64,000 bases of DNA from Bacillota bacterium. Lineage in GTDB: Bacteria; Bacillota; Negativicutes; CTSoil-072. Location: contig JAGFZV010000017.1 in NCBI GenBank assembly GCA_017889545.1, positions 1 to 64,000 on the forward strand. The letters are read 5' to 3'. The number at the start of each line of letters is the position of its first letter. Within the stretch, counting starts at the first letter, position 1. The notes under the pieces were generated by a model, which ran no database searches, was not told where the DNA came from, and saw only the letters and a program-made list of their open reading frames with translations. Positions 14,340 through 41,568 of this stretch are shown in pieces. The position numbers and the translations under genes were made by a program.

Positions 14340-14369
14340 TTGACAGTGGCGAATAACGGCTGGTACAAT
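14340..14369 (+). promoter_or_regulatory. promoter of the pur operon
   Basis: TTGACA (14340-14345), an 18-base spacer and TACAAT (14364-14369), a near-consensus sigma-A promoter. It lies 22 bases upstream of the guanine aptamer, so transcription would begin just before the riboswitch. Confidence 0.8.
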
Positions 14370-14390
14370 GGATCTGTAAATTGAATATTG

Positions 14391-14457
14391 CTCGTATAAT
14401 GTTGAGAATATGGCTCAATAGTTTCTACATGGTAACCGTAAATTACCTGACTACGAG
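14391..14457 (+). promoter_or_regulatory. guanine riboswitch aptamer
   Basis: Contains the conserved purine-aptamer blocks CTCGTATAAT, ATATGG, AGTTTCTAC, ACCGTAAAT and TGACTACGAG; the outer stem CTCG/CGAG closes it. The specificity base is C (GACTA rather than GATTA), which in this class selects guanine or hypoxanthine over adenine. It is the first of two aptamers upstream of purE and has no terminator of its own before the second. Confidence 0.93.
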
Positions 14458-14462
14458 TAAAA

Positions 14463-14590
14463 GTGTGCCTAGGGTTCCGCGCAACTTGGTATTGGACTTT
14501 CCATGCATCAGGTTGGATGGCAGCGACCAAGTGGTACAGGTATTACACTGCCGTAATGCTACACCGATGGGATAAAAACCCGGACGGGGA
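14463..14590 (+). promoter_or_regulatory. ykkC-class riboswitch, probably PRPP-sensing
   Basis: Carries the ykkC signature: CCTAGGGTTCCG (14468-14479), GCAGCGACCAAG, then CCGATGGGATAAAAACCCGG near 14564-14583. Among ykkC subtypes, the 2b (PRPP) group is known from purine operons and is known to occur directly downstream of guanine aptamers, exactly this layout. The subtype is therefore inferred mainly from context; ppGpp-type 2a is the alternative. In the known tandem, guanine promotes termination and PRPP overrides it, so the pur genes are off only when guanine is high and PRPP is low. Confidence 0.85.
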
Positions 14591-14640
14591 AGTTTTGCTC
14601 ACTAGCGAGATAGAATTTTCCTGCCCCGGGTTTCTTGTTG
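14576..14640 (+). terminator. riboswitch expression platform terminator
   Basis: AAACCCGG...GGGG (14576-14589) can pair with CCCCGGGTTT (14624-14633), followed by TTTCTTGTTG. The 5' arm overlaps the conserved 3' end of the ykkC aptamer, so ligand binding there would sequester it and block termination. Confidence 0.75.
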
Positions 14641-14682
14641 TTTCTAATGGCGGTCCCATCAGGACAAAAGGAGGTTGTTTTT

Positions 14683-15165
14683 ATGAAAGTTGCGATTATC
14701 ATGGGAAGCGATTCGGATTATCCGATATTGGAACCTGCGATTCAGACGCTGGCGGACTTCGGAATTAGTACAGAAGTAGTCGTTGCGTCCGCACACCGTA
14801 CCCCCGATATCGTTCATGAATTTGCTGCCGGCGCTGCAAAAAGAGGCGTTCGGGTCATTATTGCCGCAGCCGGCGCCGCAGCTCATTTACCGGGAGTAAT
14901 TGCGAGCTACACTACGCTGCCCGTCATTGGCGTGCCGGTAAACAGTACCCCGCTGGCGGGAATGGACGCGTTGCTGAGTATTGTTCAAATGCCGTCCGGT
15001 ATCCCGGTAGCAACGATGGCGATCAATGGCGCAAAGAATGCCGCAATTTTTGCAGCCCAGATTTTGGCGGTTTCCAATGACGAAATCGCTGAAAAATTGC
15101 TGAATCACCGGCAAATGATGGCGCAAGAAGTTGCACAGAAAGCAGCTCGCATTGCGTCGAAATAA
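14683..15165 (+). CDS. purE: N5-CAIR mutase
   Basis: 160 residues from the ATG at 14683 (AGGAGG 8 bases upstream). Class I PurE interconverts N5-carboxyaminoimidazole ribonucleotide and CAIR. The phosphate-binding GSDSDYP is at residues 8-14 and the catalytic His38 lies in SAHRTPD. It is the first gene behind the tandem riboswitch. No purK is present in this cluster. Confidence 0.96.
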   Translation: MKVAIIMGSDSDYPILEPAIQTLADFGISTEVVVASAHRTPDIVHEFAAGAAKRGVRVIIAAAGAAAHLPGVIASYTTLPVIGVPVNSTPLAGMDALLSIVQMPSGIPVATMAINGAKNAAIFAAQILAVSNDEIAEKLLNHRQMMAQEVAQKAARIASK

Positions 15166-15191: not shown

Positions 15192-15905
15192 ATGGATAAG
15201 AAACCGATGTATGAGGGTAAAGCCAAGAAAATGTATACAACTGAAAACCCAGATGAAATGCTGGTGTACTTTAAGGATGACGCTACTGCTTTTAATGGCG
15301 GTAAAAAAGGGACCATTTTGAACAAGGGCATTCTGAATAACAAGATATCGACATTTTTCTTTCAATTGCTTGGGCAGCATGGAATTCCTCATCATTTCAT
15401 CCGCACGGTAAGTGATCGTGAGATGCTGGTCAAAGCGTTGAAGATATTGCAAGTAGAGGTTGTTGTGCGCAATATTGCCGCAGGCAGCCTGGCAAAGCGG
15501 ATTGGCTGGGAGGAAGGAACAAAATTACCGACGACTGTTGTCGAAATGTATTACAAGAATGATGAATTGGGAGATCCGCTGATCAACGCTTCGCATATTA
15601 AGGCGATGGGATTAGCGTCAGAAGAACAAGTCAAGCGGATGGAAGAATATGCAGTTAAAATCAATTCAATATTGACGGATTACCTAAAAGATAAAAAAAT
15701 CGAACTAATTGACTTTAAATTGGAGTTTGGCCTCTATCATGGCGAAGTGATCTTAGGGGATGAAATTTCACCTGATACCTGCCGCTTCTGGGATAGTGAA
15801 ACGAAACAAAAATTGGATAAAGACCGCTTCCGCCGCGACTTGGGTGATGTGGAAGGCGCGTACCAGGAAATATTGTATCGATTAACCGGCGAAAAATTTT
15901 CCTGA
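15192..15905 (+). CDS. purC: SAICAR synthetase
   Basis: 237 residues, the usual bacterial length. It condenses CAIR with aspartate using ATP. Family marks include YEGKAKKMY at the start, [13 protein letters not shown], the DFKLEFG segment and the ADP-binding [13 protein letters not shown] strong AGGAGG lies 8 bases before the ATG. Second gene of the pur operon, 26 bases after purE. Confidence 0.97.
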
Positions 15906-15920
15906 AAAGGGGATTAAAGG

Positions 15921-17372
15921 GTGTTTGTGAAGATGGATCATGATAAGTGGCATGAAGAATGTGGCGTTTTTGGAATTTATTCACACAATGAAAATGTGGT
16001 ATTGAGTACGTATTGGGCGTTATATGCTTTGCAGCATCGCGGTCAGGAAAGTGCTGGCATTGCAGTTACTGACGGCTCGTTCATGGATTTGCAGCGCGGC
16101 ATGGGTCTGGTAAGCGAAGCTTTTCGTCAAGGGTTGCCAAGCATGACCGGGCATATTGCGATCGGTCATGTGCGGTATTCTACGACTGGTTCAAATTTAC
16201 TGACCAATACCCAGCCATTAATGGTATCTTATGCAGGCGGCCATATCAGTTTGGCCCATAATGGTAATTTGACAAATGCCAAGAAGGTCCGGAATGATCT
16301 TGAGCAAAAGGGCGGCGTGTTTCAAACGTCTGTCGACAGTGAAGTCATCGTGCATCTGATTGCCCGTTCCGCAAAACCGACGGTAGAAGATAAAATCATC
16401 GAGAGCCTGGAACAAATTCAAGGAGCCTATTGCCTGGTTATTATGACCGGCGACAAACTGATTGGCGTGCGGGATCCGAATGGGTTCCGGCCTCTGTGCG
16501 TCGGTAAGCTGAACGACGGTTGGGTGATTGCTTCAGAAACGTGCGCATTGGATACCGTGGGCGCTGAATTTGTCAGAGATGTAGAGCCCGGCGAAATGGT
16601 GATCATTGATGAACGGGGACTCACGTCACTGCCCTTTAAAACCGGTCAAACCCGGTCTCTCTGTGTCTTTGAATATATTTATTTTGCCCGGTCGGACAGC
16701 ACTATTGATCAGCAAAGCGTTTATGAAGCCCGCTTGGCGATGGGGCGTCAGCTTGCGCGCGAGAGCGGCCTGAAAGCGGATATCGTTATTTCCGTGCCCG
16801 ATTCCGGAACTACGGCGGCCCTTGGATTTAGTAGAGAATCCGGGATCCCGTTTGCGGAAGGCCTGATGAAAAACCGTTACATCGGCCGTACCTTCATTCA
16901 ACCGGAACAAAAGAAACGTGACTTAAGCGTGCGGATTAAATTAAATCCAATCCAAACCGTGGTGAAGGGTAAGTCCATTGTCATGGTCGATGATTCGATT
17001 GTTCGCGGGACTACCAGCGGTAAAATTGTCAAAATGCTGAAAGAGGCCGGCGCTACCGCCGTTCATATGTGCGTGAGTTCGCCGCCCATTTGTTTCCCTT
17101 GCTATTATGGCATTGACACCTCAATACGCAAAGAATTGATTGCCGCCACAAAACAGGTTGAGGAAATCCGTCAGGAGATTGGCGCCGATTCACTATATTA
17201 TCTTTCGCTGGAAGGATTGCATCGTTCACTGACTCATGTCAAGCCGACAGATATGTGCTACGCATGTTTTAATGGCCGGTATCCGGCACAGATTCCGGAG
17301 GAAGAGGATTGCGAAGACAGTAAACATGTTTTTGAGTTGGCCGGACGATATTGCAAAAATGGGCAGTCATAG
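15921..17372 (+). CDS. purF: amidophosphoribosyltransferase
   Basis: 483 residues; first committed step of purine synthesis (PRPP plus glutamine to phosphoribosylamine). The N-terminal Ntn hydrolase nucleophile is Cys14 in EECGVFGIYS; in this family a short propeptide is removed to expose it. The PRPP loop is SIVMVDDSIVRGTT. Cysteines in CVFEYIYF, CFPCYYG and CYACFNG are consistent with the 4Fe-4S cluster of the Bacillus-type enzyme, which makes it oxygen-sensitive. GTG at 15921, GTG at 15927 and ATG at 15933 are all possible starts. Confidence 0.97.
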   Translation: MFVKMDHDKWHEECGVFGIYSHNENVVLSTYWALYALQHRGQESAGIAVTDGSFMDLQRGMGLVSEAFRQGLPSMTGHIAIGHVRYSTTGSNLLTNTQPLMVSYAGGHISLAHNGNLTNAKKVRNDLEQKGGVFQTSVDSEVIVHLIARSAKPTVEDKIIESLEQIQGAYCLVIMTGDKLIGVRDPNGFRPLCVGKLNDGWVIASETCALDTVGAEFVRDVEPGEMVIIDERGLTSLPFKTGQTRSLCVFEYIYFARSDSTIDQQSVYEARLAMGRQLARESGLKADIVISVPDSGTTAALGFSRESGIPFAEGLMKNRYIGRTFIQPEQKKRDLSVRIKLNPIQTVVKGKSIVMVDDSIVRGTTSGKIVKMLKEAGATAVHMCVSSPPICFPCYYGIDTSIRKELIAATKQVEEIRQEIGADSLYYLSLEGLHRSLTHVKPTDMCYACFNGRYPAQIPEEEDCEDSKHVFELAGRYCKNGQS

Positions 17373-17383
17373 GAGGGGTACTC

Positions 17384-18439
17384 ATGGAAAGCAAGAGCTT
17401 AACATATAAAGATGCCGGCGTCGATATCGACGCCGGCAACCGTTCAGTGGAGTTGATGAAGCAACACGTTCGTGCGACGTACCGGCCGGAGGTGCTGGGC
17501 GATATTGGCGGGTTTGGCGGTCTGTTCGCTTTAAATTCCGGGAAATACCGTCAGCCGGTTTTGGTATCGGGAACGGATGGCGTTGGCACGAAACTGCGGT
17601 TGGCATTCATGATGGATCGACATGATACGATTGGCCAGGATGCTGTGGCAATGTGTGTCAATGATATTCTGGTTCAAGGCGCAGAACCGCTTTTTTTTCT
17701 TGATTATTTAGCAGTTGGATCCTTGGAACCGGAAAAAGTTGCCACGATTGTCAGCGGTGTCGCTCGCGCCTGCAAGGAATCCGGGTGTTCCTTAATTGGC
17801 GGTGAAACTGCTGAAATGGCCGGTTTCTATCCGGACGGAGAATATGATATTGCCGGCTTTGCCGTTGGCGTCGTTGAAAAGGATCGCATTATTACCGGCG
17901 AAAAGGTTGCAGCCGGCGATGTTTTGATCGGGTTGCCTTCGACCGGCATTCATTCCAATGGCTATTCGCTGGTGCGTAAAATTTGTTTTGATGTGAACTC
18001 TTTTCAAACCGGTGAATACATTGATGAACTGGGTTGTTCTTTAGGCGAAGAATTATTGAAGCCAACCCGCCTGTATCCGAAAGTGTGCTTGCCGCTTTTG
18101 GACCGGTTTACGATCCATGGCATGGTGCACATTACGGGCGGAGGATTTTATGATAACATTCCCCGGATTTTGCCCGAAAGCTGTTCTGTGACTGTCAATA
18201 CGGAAGCTTGGCCCCGGCCGGCAATTTTCGATTGTCTGCAGCGTTGGGGCAATGTTGCGTGGCCGGAAATGTACCGGACCTTCAATATGGGTATTGGAAT
18301 GATATTGGCTGTTCCGGCTGATCAGGCGCAAGGCTTGCAAGAGGAATTGAAAGCAAGAGGGGAAGCTTCCTATTTGATTGGACAGGTCACTGCAGGAGCA
18401 AGGAAAGTTTTACTTACTGGAGGTGTCTTTGGTGCGTAA
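17384..18439 (+). CDS. purM: AIR synthetase
   Basis: 351 residues from the ATG at 17384, which follows AGGAGGGG. It closes the imidazole ring of FGAM to give AIR, using ATP. Typical marks: LTYKDAGVDIDAGN at the start, SGTDGVGTKL, GGETAEMAGFY and MGIGM near the end. Its 3' end overlaps the purN start by 8 bases. Confidence 0.97.
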   Translation: MESKSLTYKDAGVDIDAGNRSVELMKQHVRATYRPEVLGDIGGFGGLFALNSGKYRQPVLVSGTDGVGTKLRLAFMMDRHDTIGQDAVAMCVNDILVQGAEPLFFLDYLAVGSLEPEKVATIVSGVARACKESGCSLIGGETAEMAGFYPDGEYDIAGFAVGVVEKDRIITGEKVAAGDVLIGLPSTGIHSNGYSLVRKICFDVNSFQTGEYIDELGCSLGEELLKPTRLYPKVCLPLLDRFTIHGMVHITGGGFYDNIPRILPESCSVTVNTEAWPRPAIFDCLQRWGNVAWPEMYRTFNMGIGMILAVPADQAQGLQEELKARGEASYLIGQVTAGARKVLLTGGVFGA

Positions 18440-19073
18440 AACGGTGTTGGGAGTACTGGTTTCCGGCCGGGGCAGCAATCTGCAGGCGATTATCGACGCA
18501 ATCAGCGCCGATCGTCTGGATGCCAAGATTGGCTTGGTTATTAGTGACAATCCGGATGCGCACGCATTGCAGCGGGTAGCAGGGTGGAACATACCCACAG
18601 TTGTTGTTGAGCGAAAAAAATATTCTTCCCGCCAAGATTTTGAAGAGCGATTAGCAGCTGAATTTGCTCTGCATCATGTGGATTTAATTTTGCTGGCCGG
18701 TTTTATGAGAATACTGAGTTCGCACTTTATCAGCCGGTTTCCGGGAAAAATTATGAATATCCACCCGGCGCTTTTGCCGGCTTTTCCAGGGCTCAATGCG
18801 CAAAAACAGGCGCTGGACTACGGGGCAAAAGTGGCCGGCTGTACCGTGCATTTTGTGGATGAAGGGATGGACAGCGGGCCGATCATTCTGCAGGAAGCGG
18901 TGCCGGTACTGGACAATGATACCGTAGAAACGTTATCGGAACGAATTTTGCACGTGGAGCACATTTTGTATCCGCGGGCTGTGAATCTATATTGTCAGCA
19001 GCGGTTGGCAGTCGAAGGACGACGAGTAAGAATTTTACCGAAAATGCCTAAGGAGGGAGCAAAAACACAATGA
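18432..19073 (+). CDS. purN: GAR transformylase (10-formyl-THF dependent)
   Basis: 213 residues from a GTG inside the 3' end of purM; GGAGG is 7 bases upstream. It transfers a formyl group from 10-formyltetrahydrofolate to GAR. Signature regions: [12 protein letters not shown], the catalytic [12 protein letters not shown] loop with His, and [13 protein letters not shown] with the catalytic Asp. The stop overlaps the purH start (ATGA). Confidence 0.96.
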
Positions 19074-20602
19074 AACGAGCGTTAATCAGCGTATCTGACA
19101 AAACCGGAATTATTGATTTTGCCAGGCGACTTAGCAATTTGGGAGTAGAAATCGTATCTACCGGCGGGACCATGAAGGCTTTGCGTGAAGCCGGTATTCC
19201 AGTCACCTATGTCAGCGATATCACCGGCTTTCCGGAAATTATGGATGGCCGGGTCAAAACATTAAATCCGCTTATTCACGGCGGAATATTGGCGATTCGG
19301 GATAATTCCGAACATGTTGCCCAAATGAAAGAACATGGGATCCAAGGGATTGATATGGTGGTCGTCAATTTGTATCCGTTTAAAGAAACGATTGATAAAC
19401 CCGGCGTAACCATGGAAGATGCAATTGAAAATATCGATATTGGCGGTCCGACAATGATCCGTTCGGCAGCCAAAAACTTTAAATATGTTGCCGTTGTGGT
19501 AAACCCCCAACGGTATGCGGACGTTTTGCAGGAACTGGAAGAAAATAAAGAAATTTCTGCGACTACTCTTTTAAGCCTTGCCAGGGAAGCGTTCAACCAT
19601 ACCGCCACCTATGATTCTTTGATTGATGCTTATTTGGCCGGACAATTGGGGGAAGGGAAATTCCCTAATTCCATGCATATTGTGTTGGAAAAGGTGCAGG
19701 ATTTGCGCTATGGGGAAAATCCGCATCAAAGCGCCGCATTTTATCGGGAAAAATATTTTGCCGGAGCTGGGATTGCCAACGCCAAACAATTGCATGGCAA
19801 AGAATTGTCCTTTAACAATATTGTCGATTTGGAAGCGGCCTTTAAAATTGCGGCTGAATTCGATCAACCGGCGGCGACAATTATTAAGCATACTAATCCG
19901 TGTGGAACGGGTATTGGCAGCACATTGGCCGCTGCATATAAAAAAGCGTATATGGCGGATCCGGTTTCTGCATTCGGAGGGATTGTGGCTGTAAACCGTG
20001 TAGTGGATGCGGCGACAGCCACTCAGATCGGCGAAATCTTTATTGAAGCCGTGATTGCTCCAGGCTTTGAGCCGGAGGCGCTGGAGATTTTGATCCAGAA
20101 GAAAAATATTCGTCTGCTGTCGGCTCAGATGGAACAGGATAGCAGCAAGCTTGGTTTTGACATGAAGCGGGTTACCGGAGGAATATTGGTGCAGGATTAT
20201 GATCTTCCGGAAAAAACGGACTTGCAGGTTGTGACGAAGAGAACTCCGACGGATGAAGAAATGGAGCAGTTGAAGTTTGCCTGGAAGGTGGTAAAGCATG
20301 TAAAATCCAACGCCATCGTTGTTGCGGGCAAAGATCAGACGCTGGGGATCGGCGCCGGACAGATGAACCGGGTTGGTTCCGCCGGAATTGCGCTCAATCA
20401 GGCTGGTGAACAGGCGAAAGGCGCAGTGCTGGCTTCGGATGCGTTTTTTCCGTTTCGGGACACAGTGGATGCAGCGGCAAAGGCCGGCATTACTGCGATT
20501 ATTCAACCGGGCGGATCGATGCGTGATGAAGAATCGATCCAGGCGGCCGATGAACATGGAATTGCCATGGTGTTTACCGGCGTGCGGCACTTTAAACATT
20601 AA
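19070..20602 (+). CDS. purH: bifunctional AICAR transformylase / IMP cyclohydrolase
   Basis: 510 residues, normal length. The N-terminal MGS-like cyclohydrolase domain ([31 protein letters not shown]) is followed by the AICAR formyltransferase domain with KHTNPCG and SNAIVVA. It completes IMP from AICAR. Translationally coupled to purN through an ATGA overlap. Confidence 0.98.
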
Positions 20603-20635
20603 TTTACCTGCACGAGATTGAGAAGAGGTGAAATT

Positions 20636-21907
20636 TTGCGGATATTAGTCATCGGCGGCGGCGGACGGGAACATGCATTAGTATGGAAACTGAAAATGAG
20701 CAGCCGCGTGGATCAAATTTACTGTATTCCCGGCAATCCCGGTATCGCGGAATTGGCGGAATGTGTGTCGCTTGACATGAGTGATAATGAGAAATTAGCG
20801 CAGTTTGCGTTAGCTCAGCAGATCGACCTGACGGTGGTTGGACCGGAAATGCCGCTTACGAATGGGGTTGTGGATTGTTTTAAGAAATATAACCTGAAAA
20901 TTTTCGGACCGTCACAAGCCGCGGCTCAGCTTGAGGGCTCTAAGGAATTTGCCAAAAAACTGATGCGCAAATATCGGGTTCCTACCGGTGATTTCGTTGT
21001 TTTCACTGAATATGAAGCAGCACGTCAATATGTTCTTTCCCATGAAGCTCCCCTGGTGATTAAAGCGGACGGGCTAGCGGCCGGAAAAGGCGTAGTTGTG
21101 GCGATGAGCCGGGAAGAAGCACTGACGGCGTTGGAAGATATGATGTGCAGTCAGGTGTTTGGCAGCGCAGGCAATAAAGTCGTGATTGAGGAGTTTCTCA
21201 GCGGTGAGGAGGCATCACTGCTCGTCTTTACCGATGGCTATACGGCGGTACCGATGGTTGCGGCCCAAGACCACAAGCGGGCTTTGGATGGCGATATGGG
21301 ACCGAATACCGGCGGAATGGGCACGTATGCGCCGGCGCCGGTGATCACGCCTGCCATCAAAGATCAGGTAATGAAGGAAATCGTTCAGCCGGTTGTTGAC
21401 GGGATGCGGACGGAAGGCTGCACCTATTGCGGCTGTTTATACGCCGGTCTGATGATTACGGCAGATGGACCGAAAGTCATTGAATTCAATGCCCGCTTCG
21501 GCGATCCGGAAACACAGGTGGTATTGCCGCTGCTGAAAAGCGATTTAGCCGTTGTCATGGAGGCTTGTGTTGATCAGAAGCTGGATACGGTGGCTGTGGA
21601 ATGGGAAGACCAGGCGGCTGTTTGCGTTGTATTGGCGGCCGGCGGTTACCCGGGCAGTTATGACAAAGGAGCCGTTATCGAGGGCTTAGCGGAGGCAAAA
21701 GACGCCGGAGCAACTGTTTTTCATGCTGGAACTGCTTTCAATGCCGAAGGCAGCATCGTAACCAACGGCGGTCGGGTTTTGGGCGTTACAGTGGCTGCTA
21801 TCGACCTTTCCGCTGCAATTGAAAAAGTCTATGACGCTGTAAAGTGCATTCATTTTACAGGGATGCAGTACCGAAAAGATATTGCGCATCGCGCGTTGAA
21901 CAGATAA
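20636..21907 (+). CDS. purD: GAR synthetase
   Basis: 423 residues from a TTG at 20636, chosen because AGAGGTG lies 5 bases upstream and the product then starts MRILVIGGGGREHA, as expected; a TTG at 20618 would add six unusual residues. ATP-grasp enzyme joining glycine to phosphoribosylamine. The ATP-binding region includes KADGLAAGKGV and the metal site EFNARFGDPETQ. Last gene of the operon, followed by a strong bidirectional terminator. Confidence 0.96.
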   Translation: MRILVIGGGGREHALVWKLKMSSRVDQIYCIPGNPGIAELAECVSLDMSDNEKLAQFALAQQIDLTVVGPEMPLTNGVVDCFKKYNLKIFGPSQAAAQLEGSKEFAKKLMRKYRVPTGDFVVFTEYEAARQYVLSHEAPLVIKADGLAAGKGVVVAMSREEALTALEDMMCSQVFGSAGNKVVIEEFLSGEEASLLVFTDGYTAVPMVAAQDHKRALDGDMGPNTGGMGTYAPAPVITPAIKDQVMKEIVQPVVDGMRTEGCTYCGCLYAGLMITADGPKVIEFNARFGDPETQVVLPLLKSDLAVVMEACVDQKLDTVAVEWEDQAAVCVVLAAGGYPGSYDKGAVIEGLAEAKDAGATVFHAGTAFNAEGSIVTNGGRVLGVTVAAIDLSAAIEKVYDAVKCIHFTGMQYRKDIAHRALNR

Positions 21908-23921: not shown

Positions 23922-24572
23922 ATGAAGATGACACAAGCAGACACTTTACATGACGCTTCACGCACCAAACGTCAGCAGATACTGGATGCAGCCTATACGG
24001 TTTTTTCCCGCAAAGGCTTTCACCGGGCGACCGTCGATGAAATTATTGCGTTGGCTGACACAGGAAAAGGAACTGTATATAATTATTTTACGAATAAAGA
24101 GCAGCTGTTTTATACACTGGTAACTGAAAAAAGCGTTCCGTTTGAACATGCATTAGGAGAAGTGGCCCGTTCTCCCCAACCTGTCTTAATGAAGATAGAA
24201 AATATGATCCGTCTTTTTTTACGCTTTTATTTGGATAATGGCGGATTGTGGCGCGTTCTGATGCATGAAATGCGTGGATTTGGCAGTGAACGATACTCGG
24301 CATTGAGTTTGGAGCAAAGAGAAAAACATCAAAATTCTTTTCGTGAAACGATTGGCATGCTGCAAATGGTCTTAGATGAAGGAATCCAAAACGGAGTTTT
24401 CAAGGAATGCGATACAAAAAAAGCGGCTTATGCCCTGTTTAGCGTGATTATAACCATGGTGTTTCAAAATTTTATTGACGATGATATTGAGGATACAGCG
24501 CATATGATTGCGGATGTATTCTTCTATGGAGTCGCAAAAGTTGAAAAAGCGCAATCTGCAACAAACGGATAA
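23922..24572 (+). CDS. TetR-family transcriptional regulator
   Basis: 216 residues from the ATG at 23922 (GGAGG 6 bases upstream). The N-terminal helix-turn-helix spans about residues 13-60 (RQQILDAAYTVFSRKGFHRATV, split by convention, then GKGTVYNYFTNKEQLF); the rest is a ligand-binding helical domain. Divergent from the DUF3311-symporter pair, so it may control them. The stop codon lies inside the left arm of a dispersed palindromic repeat, so the C-terminal residues ATNG are encoded by the repeat. Confidence 0.9.
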   Translation: MKMTQADTLHDASRTKRQQILDAAYTVFSRKGFHRATVDEIIALADTGKGTVYNYFTNKEQLFYTLVTEKSVPFEHALGEVARSPQPVLMKIENMIRLFLRFYLDNGGLWRVLMHEMRGFGSERYSALSLEQREKHQNSFRETIGMLQMVLDEGIQNGVFKECDTKKAAYALFSVIITMVFQNFIDDDIEDTAHMIADVFFYGVAKVEKAQSATNG

Positions 24573-25603: not shown

Positions 25604-26776
25604 TTATTGCCGGGTCTGAAGTTTTTTCAGGCGTTCCACTGCGGCTTCCAAGGTGGCAAACTGTTTGCAGAAACAAAAACGGATATAGTTGCGGCCGTCT
25701 GGTATTTCATCACGATAAAAGCTTGAGCAGGGGACAACTGCCACTCCGATTTCTGCGGTCAAATATTTGGCGAAGGTTACGTCGTCATCCAGACTGAATT
25801 TGTCGAACCGCGCCATAATATAATACGCTCCGTTCGGGCGAACGCAGTCAAAACCAATCTCTTGCAGATTTTTCAAAAGGTAATCACGGCGCTGGACGTA
25901 AAAATCACTAAGATGCTCATAATAATCCGGACTAAAACGCAAAGCTTCCGCGGCTGCGACCTGAAGCGGCGCTGCCGCGCCCACGGTTAAAAAGTCGTGG
26001 ACTTTACGGACCGACTGTGTAATTTCCGGAGACGCGATGACATAACCAATGCGCCAGCCTGTGGCACTGTAAGTTTTCGATATTCCGTTGATGGTAAGCG
26101 TCCGGCCGGCCATTCCCGGCAACGTTGCCAGCGGTATATGACGGGTTCCGTCGTACACGAGATGTTCGTAAATTTCGTCTGTGATGGCCAATACGTTGTG
26201 TTTTATGCATAACTCAGCGATGAATTCCAGTTCTTCACGAGAAAAAGCAGTACCGGTCGGGTTATTTGGCGTGTTGATCACAATTGCGCGGGTTTTATCG
26301 GACATTGCCGCTTCAAGTTCTTTGGGGTCAAAACGGAATTCCGGCGGATGCAGACGCACGTATTTGGGTATGGCGCCGCACAGGATGACATCTGGTCCAT
26401 AGTTTTCATAGAAAGGTTCGAAAATGATCACTTCATCGCCAGGGTTTACGGTAGCCAACAGAGAGGCGACCATGCATTCAGTCGCCCCGCAGCAAACGGT
26501 GATTTGGCTTTCCGGATCAATGTCCATATTATATTCCTGTTTGTTTTTCCAGGCGATTGCATCTCTCAAAGCCTTTGTACCCCAAGTAATAGCATATTGG
26601 TTATGATCGGCATTGATAGCCCGGACTGCTGCTTGCTTGAGAGCTTCCGGCGCCGGGAAATCGGGAAAACCCTGTGCGAGATTAATTGCCTGATGTTGGG
26701 CAGCAATCCGTGACATTTCACGGATAACCGATTCTGTAAAACGTGCTGCTTTTTCGGATGCAAAGGATTGATTCAT
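25604..26776 (-). CDS. PLP aminotransferase, probably methionine-related
   Basis: 390 residues from the ATG at 26776 (GGGAG 9 bases upstream). Class I/II fold-type I aminotransferase with LAQGFPDFPAPEAL, NNPTGTAFSREEL, the PLP lysine in GISKTYSATGWRIGY and RFCFCK at the end. It is close in pattern to the MtnE/YbdL-type enzymes that use methionine or its keto acid. The SAM riboswitch upstream and the metQ gene downstream make a role in methionine salvage or uptake likely. Exact substrate unproven. Confidence 0.85.
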   Translation of the reverse strand: MNQSFASEKAARFTESVIREMSRIAAQHQAINLAQGFPDFPAPEALKQAAVRAINADHNQYAITWGTKALRDAIAWKNKQEYNMDIDPESQITVCCGATECMVASLLATVNPGDEVIIFEPFYENYGPDVILCGAIPKYVRLHPPEFRFDPKELEAAMSDKTRAIVINTPNNPTGTAFSREELEFIAELCIKHNVLAITDEIYEHLVYDGTRHIPLATLPGMAGRTLTINGISKTYSATGWRIGYVIASPEITQSVRKVHDFLTVGAAAPLQVAAAEALRFSPDYYEHLSDFYVQRRDYLLKNLQEIGFDCVRPNGAYYIMARFDKFSLDDDVTFAKYLTAEIGVAVVPCSSFYRDEIPDGRNYIRFCFCKQFATLEAAVERLKKLQTRQ

Positions 26777-26833
26777 GTACAAACACTCCCTGTTTCAATA
26801 TTTCTTGGTTGATTTCTTGCTGAAAAAAGGCAA

Positions 26834-26875: not shown

Positions 26876-26990
26876 ATTCTTCATCTTTCAGGAAATAATT
26901 CCTGAAGGAATTGGCACCGTTTCGCAAAAAAGCGATGGTTGCCGCAGCGTCATTGGGCCCGTCCCTCAGCCGGCTCTTGATGAAAAAGCG
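26876..26990 (-). promoter_or_regulatory. SAM-I (S-box) riboswitch
   Basis: Read on the minus strand: TCATCAAGAGCCGG, CTGAGGGACGGGCCCAATGA, GCGGCAACC, GGTGCCAATTCC and AAAGATGAAGAA, the conserved S-box blocks in order. In this class SAM binding causes termination. It would shut off the aminotransferase and metQ when SAM is plentiful. Confidence 0.95.
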
Positions 26991-38341: not shown

Positions 38342-39526
38342 TTACTTTTTGAGGCGCGGCAGACCGGTTTTCAGGAAGCGGTTGATCCGTTCCAGCGCCT
38401 CAGAGAGTTTGGGAAGGGAAGAGGCGTAAGAACAGCGCACAAAGCCTTCGCCGCTTGCTCCAAAAGCGTCGCCCGGTACAAGGGCGACTTTTTCTGCTTT
38501 TAGGAGTTCTTCCGCAAACTGCAGTGAGGTCAAGCCGGTCTCTTTGATGCTGGGGAAGATATAAAAAGCGCCCTGGGGTTCAAAACAGGTCAGACCCATT
38601 TCTCTCAGTCCTTTTAACATCAGGCGGCGACGGGTATTATATTCAGCGACCATTTTTTGCACGCTGCTGCCCCCGCTCTGCAGGGCCTCAAGCGCTGCAA
38701 GCTGGGCAGTGATCGGCGCGCACAGCATAGTAAATTGGTGGATCTTGGTCATGGCGGCAATGAAATCAGGATTTCCAAGCGCATACCCGATACGCCAGCC
38801 AGTCATTGCAAATGACTTAGAAAACCCATTCATCAGGATTGTCCGGTCTTTTATATCCGGCAAACTGGCGAAGCAGGTATGCGTTCCTTCATAGGTCAGA
38901 CTGGAATAGATTTCATCGGAGATGACAATCAGATCGTGACGTTTGGCAAACTCAGCAATGGCGAGGAGTTCCTGCCGGGGCATGATGGCGCCGGTGGGAT
39001 TGTTAGGATAGCCGAGCAGCAATACTTTCGTACGGTTTGTCAATTTTTCTTCCAGCTGCTGCACTGTTACCCGGAAGTTGTTTTCCATCGTTGTGACTAC
39101 CGGAACAGGAACACCGCCCGCCAGGATCGTGCAGGCTTGGTAAGAGACGTAGCAGGGCTCAGGAATGAGCACCTCATCACCCGGAGTAAGCACAGTTCGC
39201 ATTGCCAAATCAAGAGCTTCGCTGACGCCGACGGTGACGAGAACTTCGTTGCGGGGATTATAGGTTAAGCCATCACAGTCTCTTTGGATTGTTCGGACGA
39301 TTTCCTCCCGCAATTCCAATAAGCCGGCATTGGAGGTGTAGGATGTATAGCCGAGATTCAAGCCATGAATGCAGCTTTCACGAATATGCCAGGGAGTGAC
39401 AAAATCAGGTTCGCCGACGCCAAGGGAAATGACATCTTCCATTTCGGCGGCGATGTCAAAAAAACGGCGAATTCCAGAGGGCGGAATTGCTCTGACCGCC
39501 GGTGAAATGCGATCAGCCCAAGTCAT
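38342..39526 (-). CDS. PLP aminotransferase (aspartate-type)
   Basis: 394 residues. Fold-type I enzyme: VISLGVGEPDFVTP, YTSNAGLLELREEI, YPNNPTGAIM, the PLP lysine in NGFSKSFAMTGWRIGY and FVRCSYASS. Overlaps the upstream lrp gene by ATGA, so they are one operon behind a T-box. The T-box's likely specifier is an aspartate codon, which would suit an aspartate aminotransferase, but aromatic or other substrates are possible. Confidence 0.88.
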   Translation of the reverse strand: MTWADRISPAVRAIPPSGIRRFFDIAAEMEDVISLGVGEPDFVTPWHIRESCIHGLNLGYTSYTSNAGLLELREEIVRTIQRDCDGLTYNPRNEVLVTVGVSEALDLAMRTVLTPGDEVLIPEPCYVSYQACTILAGGVPVPVVTTMENNFRVTVQQLEEKLTNRTKVLLLGYPNNPTGAIMPRQELLAIAEFAKRHDLIVISDEIYSSLTYEGTHTCFASLPDIKDRTILMNGFSKSFAMTGWRIGYALGNPDFIAAMTKIHQFTMLCAPITAQLAALEALQSGGSSVQKMVAEYNTRRRLMLKGLREMGLTCFEPQGAFYIFPSIKETGLTSLQFAEELLKAEKVALVPGDAFGASGEGFVRCSYASSLPKLSEALERINRFLKTGLPRLKK

Positions 39527-40002
39527 GGTGTCACCACCAGTCGGCGGTCTTTTTCACGGTCTTCGATGATTACGCCTTCTTCTTTATATTTTTTGAGAAC
39601 GAAATGGCTGGTCGTACTGATGACACCCTCAATTGTTGCCAGCTTGGTGGAAACGAAGTTCGCGACTTCTTTCATGGTTTGCCCTTCCACCATAACCAGC
39701 AAATCAAACGATCCTGACATCAGATAGAGGTTTCTGACTTCCGGAAACCGGTAAATGCGCTCTGCAATGGCGTCAAAGCCAACCTCGCGCTGCGGAGTGA
39801 TCCGCACGGTGATAATTGCGGAAACAATATCCACACCGGCTTTTTCCCAGTTGATAATCGTGTGATATTTCACGATGATTTTTTCGGTTTCCAATTGGCG
39901 AATTTGCTTAGCGATTTCTTCTTTGGGGCGGTTCAGAAGATCTGCAAGGGTTTCCGGCGACTGCGTATAATCCTTCTCTAATAATTCGAGTAATTCTTTC
40001 AT
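39523..40002 (-). CDS. Lrp/AsnC-family regulator
   Basis: 159 residues from the ATG at 40002 (GAGGAG 9 bases upstream). N-terminal winged helix (LADLLNRPKEEIAKQIRQLETEKII) and a C-terminal RAM/ACT-like effector domain (VSAIITVRITPQREVGFD, GSFDLLVMVEG). Such proteins sense amino acids. First gene of the T-box operon, and it probably feeds into control of the same amino acid pathway as the aminotransferase. Confidence 0.9.
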   Translation of the reverse strand: MKELLELLEKDYTQSPETLADLLNRPKEEIAKQIRQLETEKIIVKYHTIINWEKAGVDIVSAIITVRITPQREVGFDAIAERIYRFPEVRNLYLMSGSFDLLVMVEGQTMKEVANFVSTKLATIEGVISTTSHFVLKKYKEEGVIIEDREKDRRLVVTP

Positions 40003-40146
40003 CAACAGCAACTCCTCATTATCATAATTTTTGGGAAAATCAATTGGAATTTAGAAAACCCGGCTTACGCTGAGCTTTAAAAGCGACGGCGTAAACCGCT
40101 GGTTGCACTTATGTCCATCAGACAAAATTTATACTTTCTGATGGAC

Positions 40147-40385
40147 AAAAAAAGTCCCGTCCTGAAAAGGACGGGACTACTGTTCCCGTGGTACCACCTG
40201 AATTAGCCATGAAGGCTCACTTTGTCTTGTTAACGCCAAGGTACGGTATCGCTTACTGTCAATCGTTCAGCTAACAGCTCCAGGGAGGCTTTCACTGCCA
40301 AGTTTCTGTTGGATTTCACCAGTCCCAACTCTCTGCAAAAAACTGTATCAGTTACTATTCCTGTCATCGCCATTTCGGATATGAT
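40147..40385 (-). promoter_or_regulatory. T-box leader with terminator
   Basis: On the minus strand: AATAGTAACTG, GCAGAGAGTTGGGACTGGTG, CCTGGAG in Stem I, the T-box GGTGGTACCACGG (about 40188-40200) and a terminator AGTCCCGTCC / GGACGGGACT followed by 7 T (to 40147). A GAAC just 3' of Stem I is followed by GAT at 40264-40262, the likely specifier (Asp). Uncharged tRNA would pair and prevent termination. A plausible promoter (TTTACA, TATTCT) is at about 40427-40402. The T-box identity is firm, the specifier less so. Confidence 0.9.
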
Positions 40386-41222: not shown

Positions 41223-41380
41223 TGTCTTGTTACCTCGCATAAGATTGATGACACTTATTATACAGGATAAAAATATTTTCACCTAGCAGGGAACCGCGTA
41301 AATTGTGTAGAATTATGCTAAATAGAATAAAATATCGTTGGCTATGTGTGCAAAACGATTATACAGTTTGGATGATGGTT

Positions 41381-41536
41381 AGGGGAGAGACCGCAGGAAT
41401 ATGCGGCGCCGAAGGAGCAATTACGCCATAATCTCTCAGGCAAAAGGACCTTGACCGGACATTCTCTGGAGAGTGCCGTAAAGCGGCCACCGAAGGGGTA
41501 GCTAATGAATGCAATCTCTCAGGTACAAGGACAGAG
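41381..41536 (+). promoter_or_regulatory. tandem glycine riboswitch
   Basis: Two copies of the glycine aptamer: GGGAGAGACCGC, GCGCCGAAGGAGCAA and AATCTCTCAGGCAAAAGGAC, then GGAGAGTGCC, CACCGAAGGGG and CAATCTCTCAGGTACAAGGAC. They are separated by only a few bases. In known examples glycine turns on the gcv genes. Here it precedes gcvT directly. Confidence 0.95.
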
Positions 41537-41568
41537 TAAGCGACAACGCTTATTTTCTGTCCTTTTTG
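41527..41568 (+). terminator. glycine riboswitch terminator
   Basis: AAGGACAGAGTAAGCG pairs with CGCTTATTTTCTGTCCTT around ACAA, followed by TTTTTG. The left arm overlaps the last conserved bases of the second aptamer (AAGGACAG), so folding of the aptamer and terminator are mutually exclusive. Confidence 0.8.

Follow-up and report, generated by a model that had tools for sequence, protein, structure and literature searches.

The window, by which we mean the whole 64,000-nt stretch of DNA analyzed, carries guaA followed by a promoter, a tandem of two aptamers and the purine biosynthesis operon purECFMNHD (Table 1). The leader (14340-14682) runs from this promoter, which lies between the guaA stop codon and the guanine aptamer, through both aptamers and one terminator to the ribosome-binding site before purE. 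The seven pur open reading frames are separated by gaps of at most 26 nt, and a search within the operon for an excess of terminators found none. The preliminary description had placed all seven pur genes under this leader, which stands for purECFMNHD but does not extend to two other genes of the same genome: purB (G000:C38:174636-175964) and a long frame resembling a single-chain purL (1259 aa; G000:C41:75427-77364) lie away from the operon without such a leader, and the search revealed neither a purine nor a ykkC RNA in the vicinity of either. A search of the whole genome returned a single purine riboswitch, that of the window, and five ykkC RNAs, among which only the window's adjoins pur genes. 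We have little doubt that the tandem is a guanine–PRPP riboswitch working as a single transcription-attenuation device before purECFMNHD.

Table 1. Features of the purE leader and the downstream operon (window coordinates; aptamer positions 75-77, 95 and 96 in T. mathranii numbering)
Feature	Positions	Strand	Basis
Sigma-70-type promoter, TTGACA-N18-TACAAT, TG before -10	14340-14369	+	11/12 consensus matches
Guanine aptamer (purine riboswitch)	14388-14460	+	RF00167 85.5 bits, E 4.7e-16; P1 covariation, 44 distinct loci
Guanine P1, 5' and 3' strands	14388-14396, 14452-14460	+	
Guanine specificity base C74	C14451	+	Sequence
PRPP aptamer (ykkC subtype 2b)	14455-14600	+	PRPP model 90.6 vs ppGpp model 45.5 bits; RF00442 43.9 bits
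PRPP P0 (8 bp), 5' and 3' strands	14455-14462, 14593-14600	+	Kept in relatives
PRPP pocket C75-A76-C77	14562-14564	+	
G95, G96	14582-14583	+	Numbering from primers printed in PMC6031431 and alignment
GAGUAA, common to guanine P1 and PRPP P0 (mutually exclusive helices)	14455-14460	+	Sequence; P0/P1 counts, same 44-locus alignment
Intrinsic terminator hairpin	about 14576-14633	+	Fold
Terminator U-rich tail (UUUCUUGUUGUUUC)	14631-14644	+	Sequence
purE, first controlled gene	14683-15165	+	TIGR01162 201.8 bits, cut-off 149.6
purC	15192-15905	+	TIGR00081
purF (first step, consumes PRPP)	15921-17372	+	TIGR01134
purM	17351-18439	+	TIGR00878
purN	18378-19073	+	TIGR00639
purH	19070-20602	+	TIGR00355
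purD	20618-21907	+	TIGR00877

The upstream element is a guanine aptamer with C at the specificity position, as had been claimed: its RF00167 match (14372-14473, + strand) lies well above the gathering score of 37. The leader as a whole folds more stably than expected (z = -3.9), with none of 200 shuffles equally stable. One hairpin with a U-rich tail follows the ykkC-type aptamer, in agreement with the single terminator of the preliminary description, and a second terminator, sought in the leader behind the guanine aptamer, was not found. In the predicted fold, the P3 3' strand and the entire P0 3' strand fall within the 5' arm of the hairpin. A further candidate helix, between GAUGGGA in the aptamer (14566-14572) and UCCCAUC just 5' of the purE ribosome-binding site (14650-14657), was rejected: the partner strand is absent from the relatives' sequences inspected, and the complementarity is probably due to chance.

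Classification of the second aptamer required a comparison among closely related RNA types. Subtypes 2a and 2b are much alike; in the T. mathranii structure G96 fixes PRPP over ppGpp, and changing this one base (G96A) turns one subtype into the other (PMC6031431). A PRPP-type covariance model was derived from 19 aptamers located downstream of guanine aptamers and a second model from 18 ppGpp-type aptamers, the latter mostly chosen by a T-box or an ilv/gltB/nifV-like gene in the locus and in a few cases by sequence only; the window aptamer was left out of both training sets. It scored far higher with the PRPP-type model (Table 1), and the PRPP call of the preliminary description, which had named the ppGpp (2a) model as its refutation test, thus held up. 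Held-out controls behaved consistently, with 20 of 20 type-2 loci assigned to the expected class by the higher score: ten tandem loci gave 98-111 bits with the PRPP model versus 54-76 with the ppGpp model, while ten ppGpp-type loci gave 63-78 and 84-108 bits, respectively. Six guanidine-I-type loci, all over the RF00442 cut-off, reached at most 50 bits with both models (37-50 with the PRPP model). Furthermore, the PRPP-diagnostic G96 is present as G14583, and C75-A76-C77 is conserved. The subtype is now tested instead of guessed.

A guanine–ppGpp pair, in which the second aptamer would be of subtype 2a, is very improbable on these data. The ease with which G96A interconverts the subtypes and the presence of four 2a-like RNAs in the same genome lend it some plausibility, and the ppGpp riboswitch shares with the window aptamer both the scaffold and the 5' core CUAGGGUUCCG. 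However, ppGpp riboswitches are without G96, are mostly G at position 97, where the window has A, and precede ilv, gltB or nifV-like genes or pair with T-boxes, whereas the window aptamer stands upstream of pur genes; the genome's four other ykkC RNAs also score higher with the ppGpp model than with the PRPP model, opposite to the window. A guanidine-I aptamer is ruled out by score and by pocket sequence. The RF00442 match (14458-14588; E 1.4e-6) falls below the guanidine-I gathering score of 63 bits, as expected since the second aptamer is a non-guanidine subtype, and the guanidine-I riboswitch shares the scaffold but has no P0 and a different pocket.

That same sub-threshold Rfam score could instead be read as decay of the second aptamer, leaving the guanine switch to work alone, and with the PRPP model the window also scores lower than any other tandem locus tested (90.6 versus 97.9-111.2 bits). 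We regard this reading as highly unlikely: the strongly conserved core elements are all there, the lower score accompanies a long variable P1 arm, and a change in P0 is compensated (see below).

Several other structured RNAs were observed in the genome. Behind each of two ppGpp-type ykkC RNAs (L001 and L002; G000:C41:21477-21583 and 24087-24193) comes a T-box-like motif and then ilv genes, which is the known ppGpp/T-box arrangement occurring twice within 2.6 kb. Another ppGpp-type RNA (L003; G000:C38:93706-93807) precedes a glutamate-synthase-like gene and a further one (L005; G000:C12:7192-7291) a homocitrate-synthase/nifV-like gene, both genes being named from their sequence. Within the window, a glycine riboswitch lies before gcvT (41372-41550, + strand), and a second, weaker glycine-like core appears to follow directly (41470-41540), probably forming the usual tandem pair. 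On the minus strand, a T-box leader (40164-40376; 114 bits) is located upstream of an open reading frame (39523-40011) and an aminotransferase gene (38342-39526), and a SAM riboswitch (26878-26986; 90.8 bits) precedes another aminotransferase gene (25604-26782).

The window tandem is a new, ordinary member of an RNA logic gate that is already known and well described. The guanine–PRPP class was reported by Sherlock et al. in 2018 (PMC5912903) and had 192 counted members by 2022; the two-input arrangement recognized in the preliminary description fits this class, including its IMP-pathway gene context, here purECFMNHD. The tandem before codA in B. megaterium (PMC5912903) shares with the window the order of aptamers, a core spacing of 5-7 nt, a single shared terminator and a purine gene context, but the window's host belongs to another lineage and its operon begins without a permease or codA gene. 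The T. mathranii PRPP aptamer (PDB 6CK5; Knappenberger et al. 2018, PMC6031431) shares G96, C75-A76-C77, the closing helix P0 and the mutual exclusion of P0 and P1, while the window differs in its long P1 arm and in the bases after G96 (ACGGGG versus GAGGAU in T. mathranii), with a second-position C that matches relatives.

Gene content downstream also sets the window apart from its relatives. Of 75 relatives, 62 have a purine-type permease gene (PF00860) beginning no more than 600 nt from the tandem, and in most relatives it is the first gene downstream (compared in L019, L021, L044 and others), whereas no permease gene lies between tandem and purE in the window (14640-14683). A close homologue of the relatives' permease was searched for in the window's genome and not found; two other PF00860 proteins are encoded elsewhere in it. 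An initial identification of the extra gene in relatives as purB was wrong, the gene being this permease.

The strand between the two aptamers has a conserved dual pairing. The preliminary description had put about 5 bases between guanine and ykkC-type aptamers, which is right as a core-to-core distance; P0, however, overlaps the 3' strand of guanine P1, and the two aptamers are therefore intertwined, not merely adjacent. Mutual exclusion of P0 and P1 was proposed by Knappenberger et al. for one sequence, that of T. mathranii (PMC6031431), and a 2022 review still called the structural changes of the coupling unestablished (PMC9481103); our literature search found no later paper resolving the question.

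For a family-wide comparison, 84,980 genomes and 301 genomes of the window's class were scanned with a pattern allowing 5-30 nt between the guanine and PRPP cores, the class being used because searches of the window's family and order returned its own genome alone. A distance of 18 nt from ACTA to CCTAGGG was by far the commonest among loci with purine-like upstream sequence (78 loci). The scan gave 76 tandem loci with standard spacing, the window counted, although the two collections overlap and some loci come from the same or near-identical genomes; 44 distinct three-strand composites were taken from them and aligned. Over these 44 distinct loci, guanine P1 was paired in 88.1% of cells on the shared columns, with a covariation score above all 500 shuffles. 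P0 was paired in 90.9% of cells, compared with 27-52% for slid partners, and three of its pairs carried changes on both sides. The shuffle control for P0 was modest, with 40 of 500 shuffles reaching the observed percentage paired, because the strand hardly varies.

In the window taken alone, an 8-nt complement of this kind is not rare by chance (308 of 5000 shuffles reached it); the support for P0 comes from the family. The window makes a contribution of its own at one pair: A14459-U14596 replaces the G-C found in 42 of the 44 distinct loci, with both sides changed, and is the sole compensatory change at that pair among the 44 distinct sequences. The intermediate G-U occurs in one relative (L089). 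A14459 can also pair with U14389 in guanine P1, and U14596 is part of the terminator arm. Furthermore, the predicted energy difference between P0 and P1 had a median of -0.8 kcal/mol over 59 distinct loci, with +2.4 for the window. As judged from these alignments, the mutual exclusion of P0 and P1 is a family-wide pattern and not a one-sequence model. Our data suggest that the coupling is probably a three-strand exchange, in which one strand of 6-8 nt serves both guanine P1 and PRPP P0, in a register conserved in the tandems examined and near energetic balance.

By analogy with the T. mathranii structure (PMC6031431) and with experiments on the B. megaterium codA tandem (PMC5912903), the window RNA would bind both ligands and switch as follows. 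The strand at 14455-14460 can pair upstream, with P1 closing the guanine aptamer, or downstream, with P0 closing the PRPP aptamer. Bound guanine would stabilize P1 and free the P0 3' strand, allowing the terminator to form (OFF), whereas bound PRPP would stabilize P0 and P3, holding the terminator arm and opening P1 (ON). Since P1 and P0 share a strand and the P0 3' strand lies in the terminator arm, the three helices form an exclusive chain, P1–P0–terminator. The truth table carried over from codA, off only at high guanine and low PRPP, may apply here as well.

Alternatively, the two aptamers may read guanine and PRPP separately, without strand competition, as a NOT A AND B device. The terminator does overlap the second aptamer only, and nearest-neighbor energies favor it at no ligand: in the full-length window transcript they place the terminator about 15 kcal/mol below the antiterminated (P0) fold, so that without ligand the device could be OFF, against the IMPLY table, unless kinetics and tertiary structure decide. 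Independence nevertheless seems unlikely given that no second terminator stands behind the guanine aptamer, that P0 and P1 have a strand in common, at constant spacing, in the 76 loci analyzed, and that in B. megaterium the PRPP aptamer becomes looser at its 5' end with guanine (PMC5912903). With a terminator so much more stable than the P0 fold, a device coupled by strand exchange would have to work kinetically.

The tandem adds one well-supported member to a natural RNA gate with two interacting aptamers; the genome it comes from is the sole representative of its order in the set searched. The remaining interest lies in the family-wide evidence for strand exchange: the comparative data turn a one-sequence model into a testable family-wide rule, for which A14459-U14596 offers a natural mutational handle. 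If true, the three-strand exchange would answer, for the class as a whole, the coupling question that the 2022 review had called unresolved (PMC9481103).
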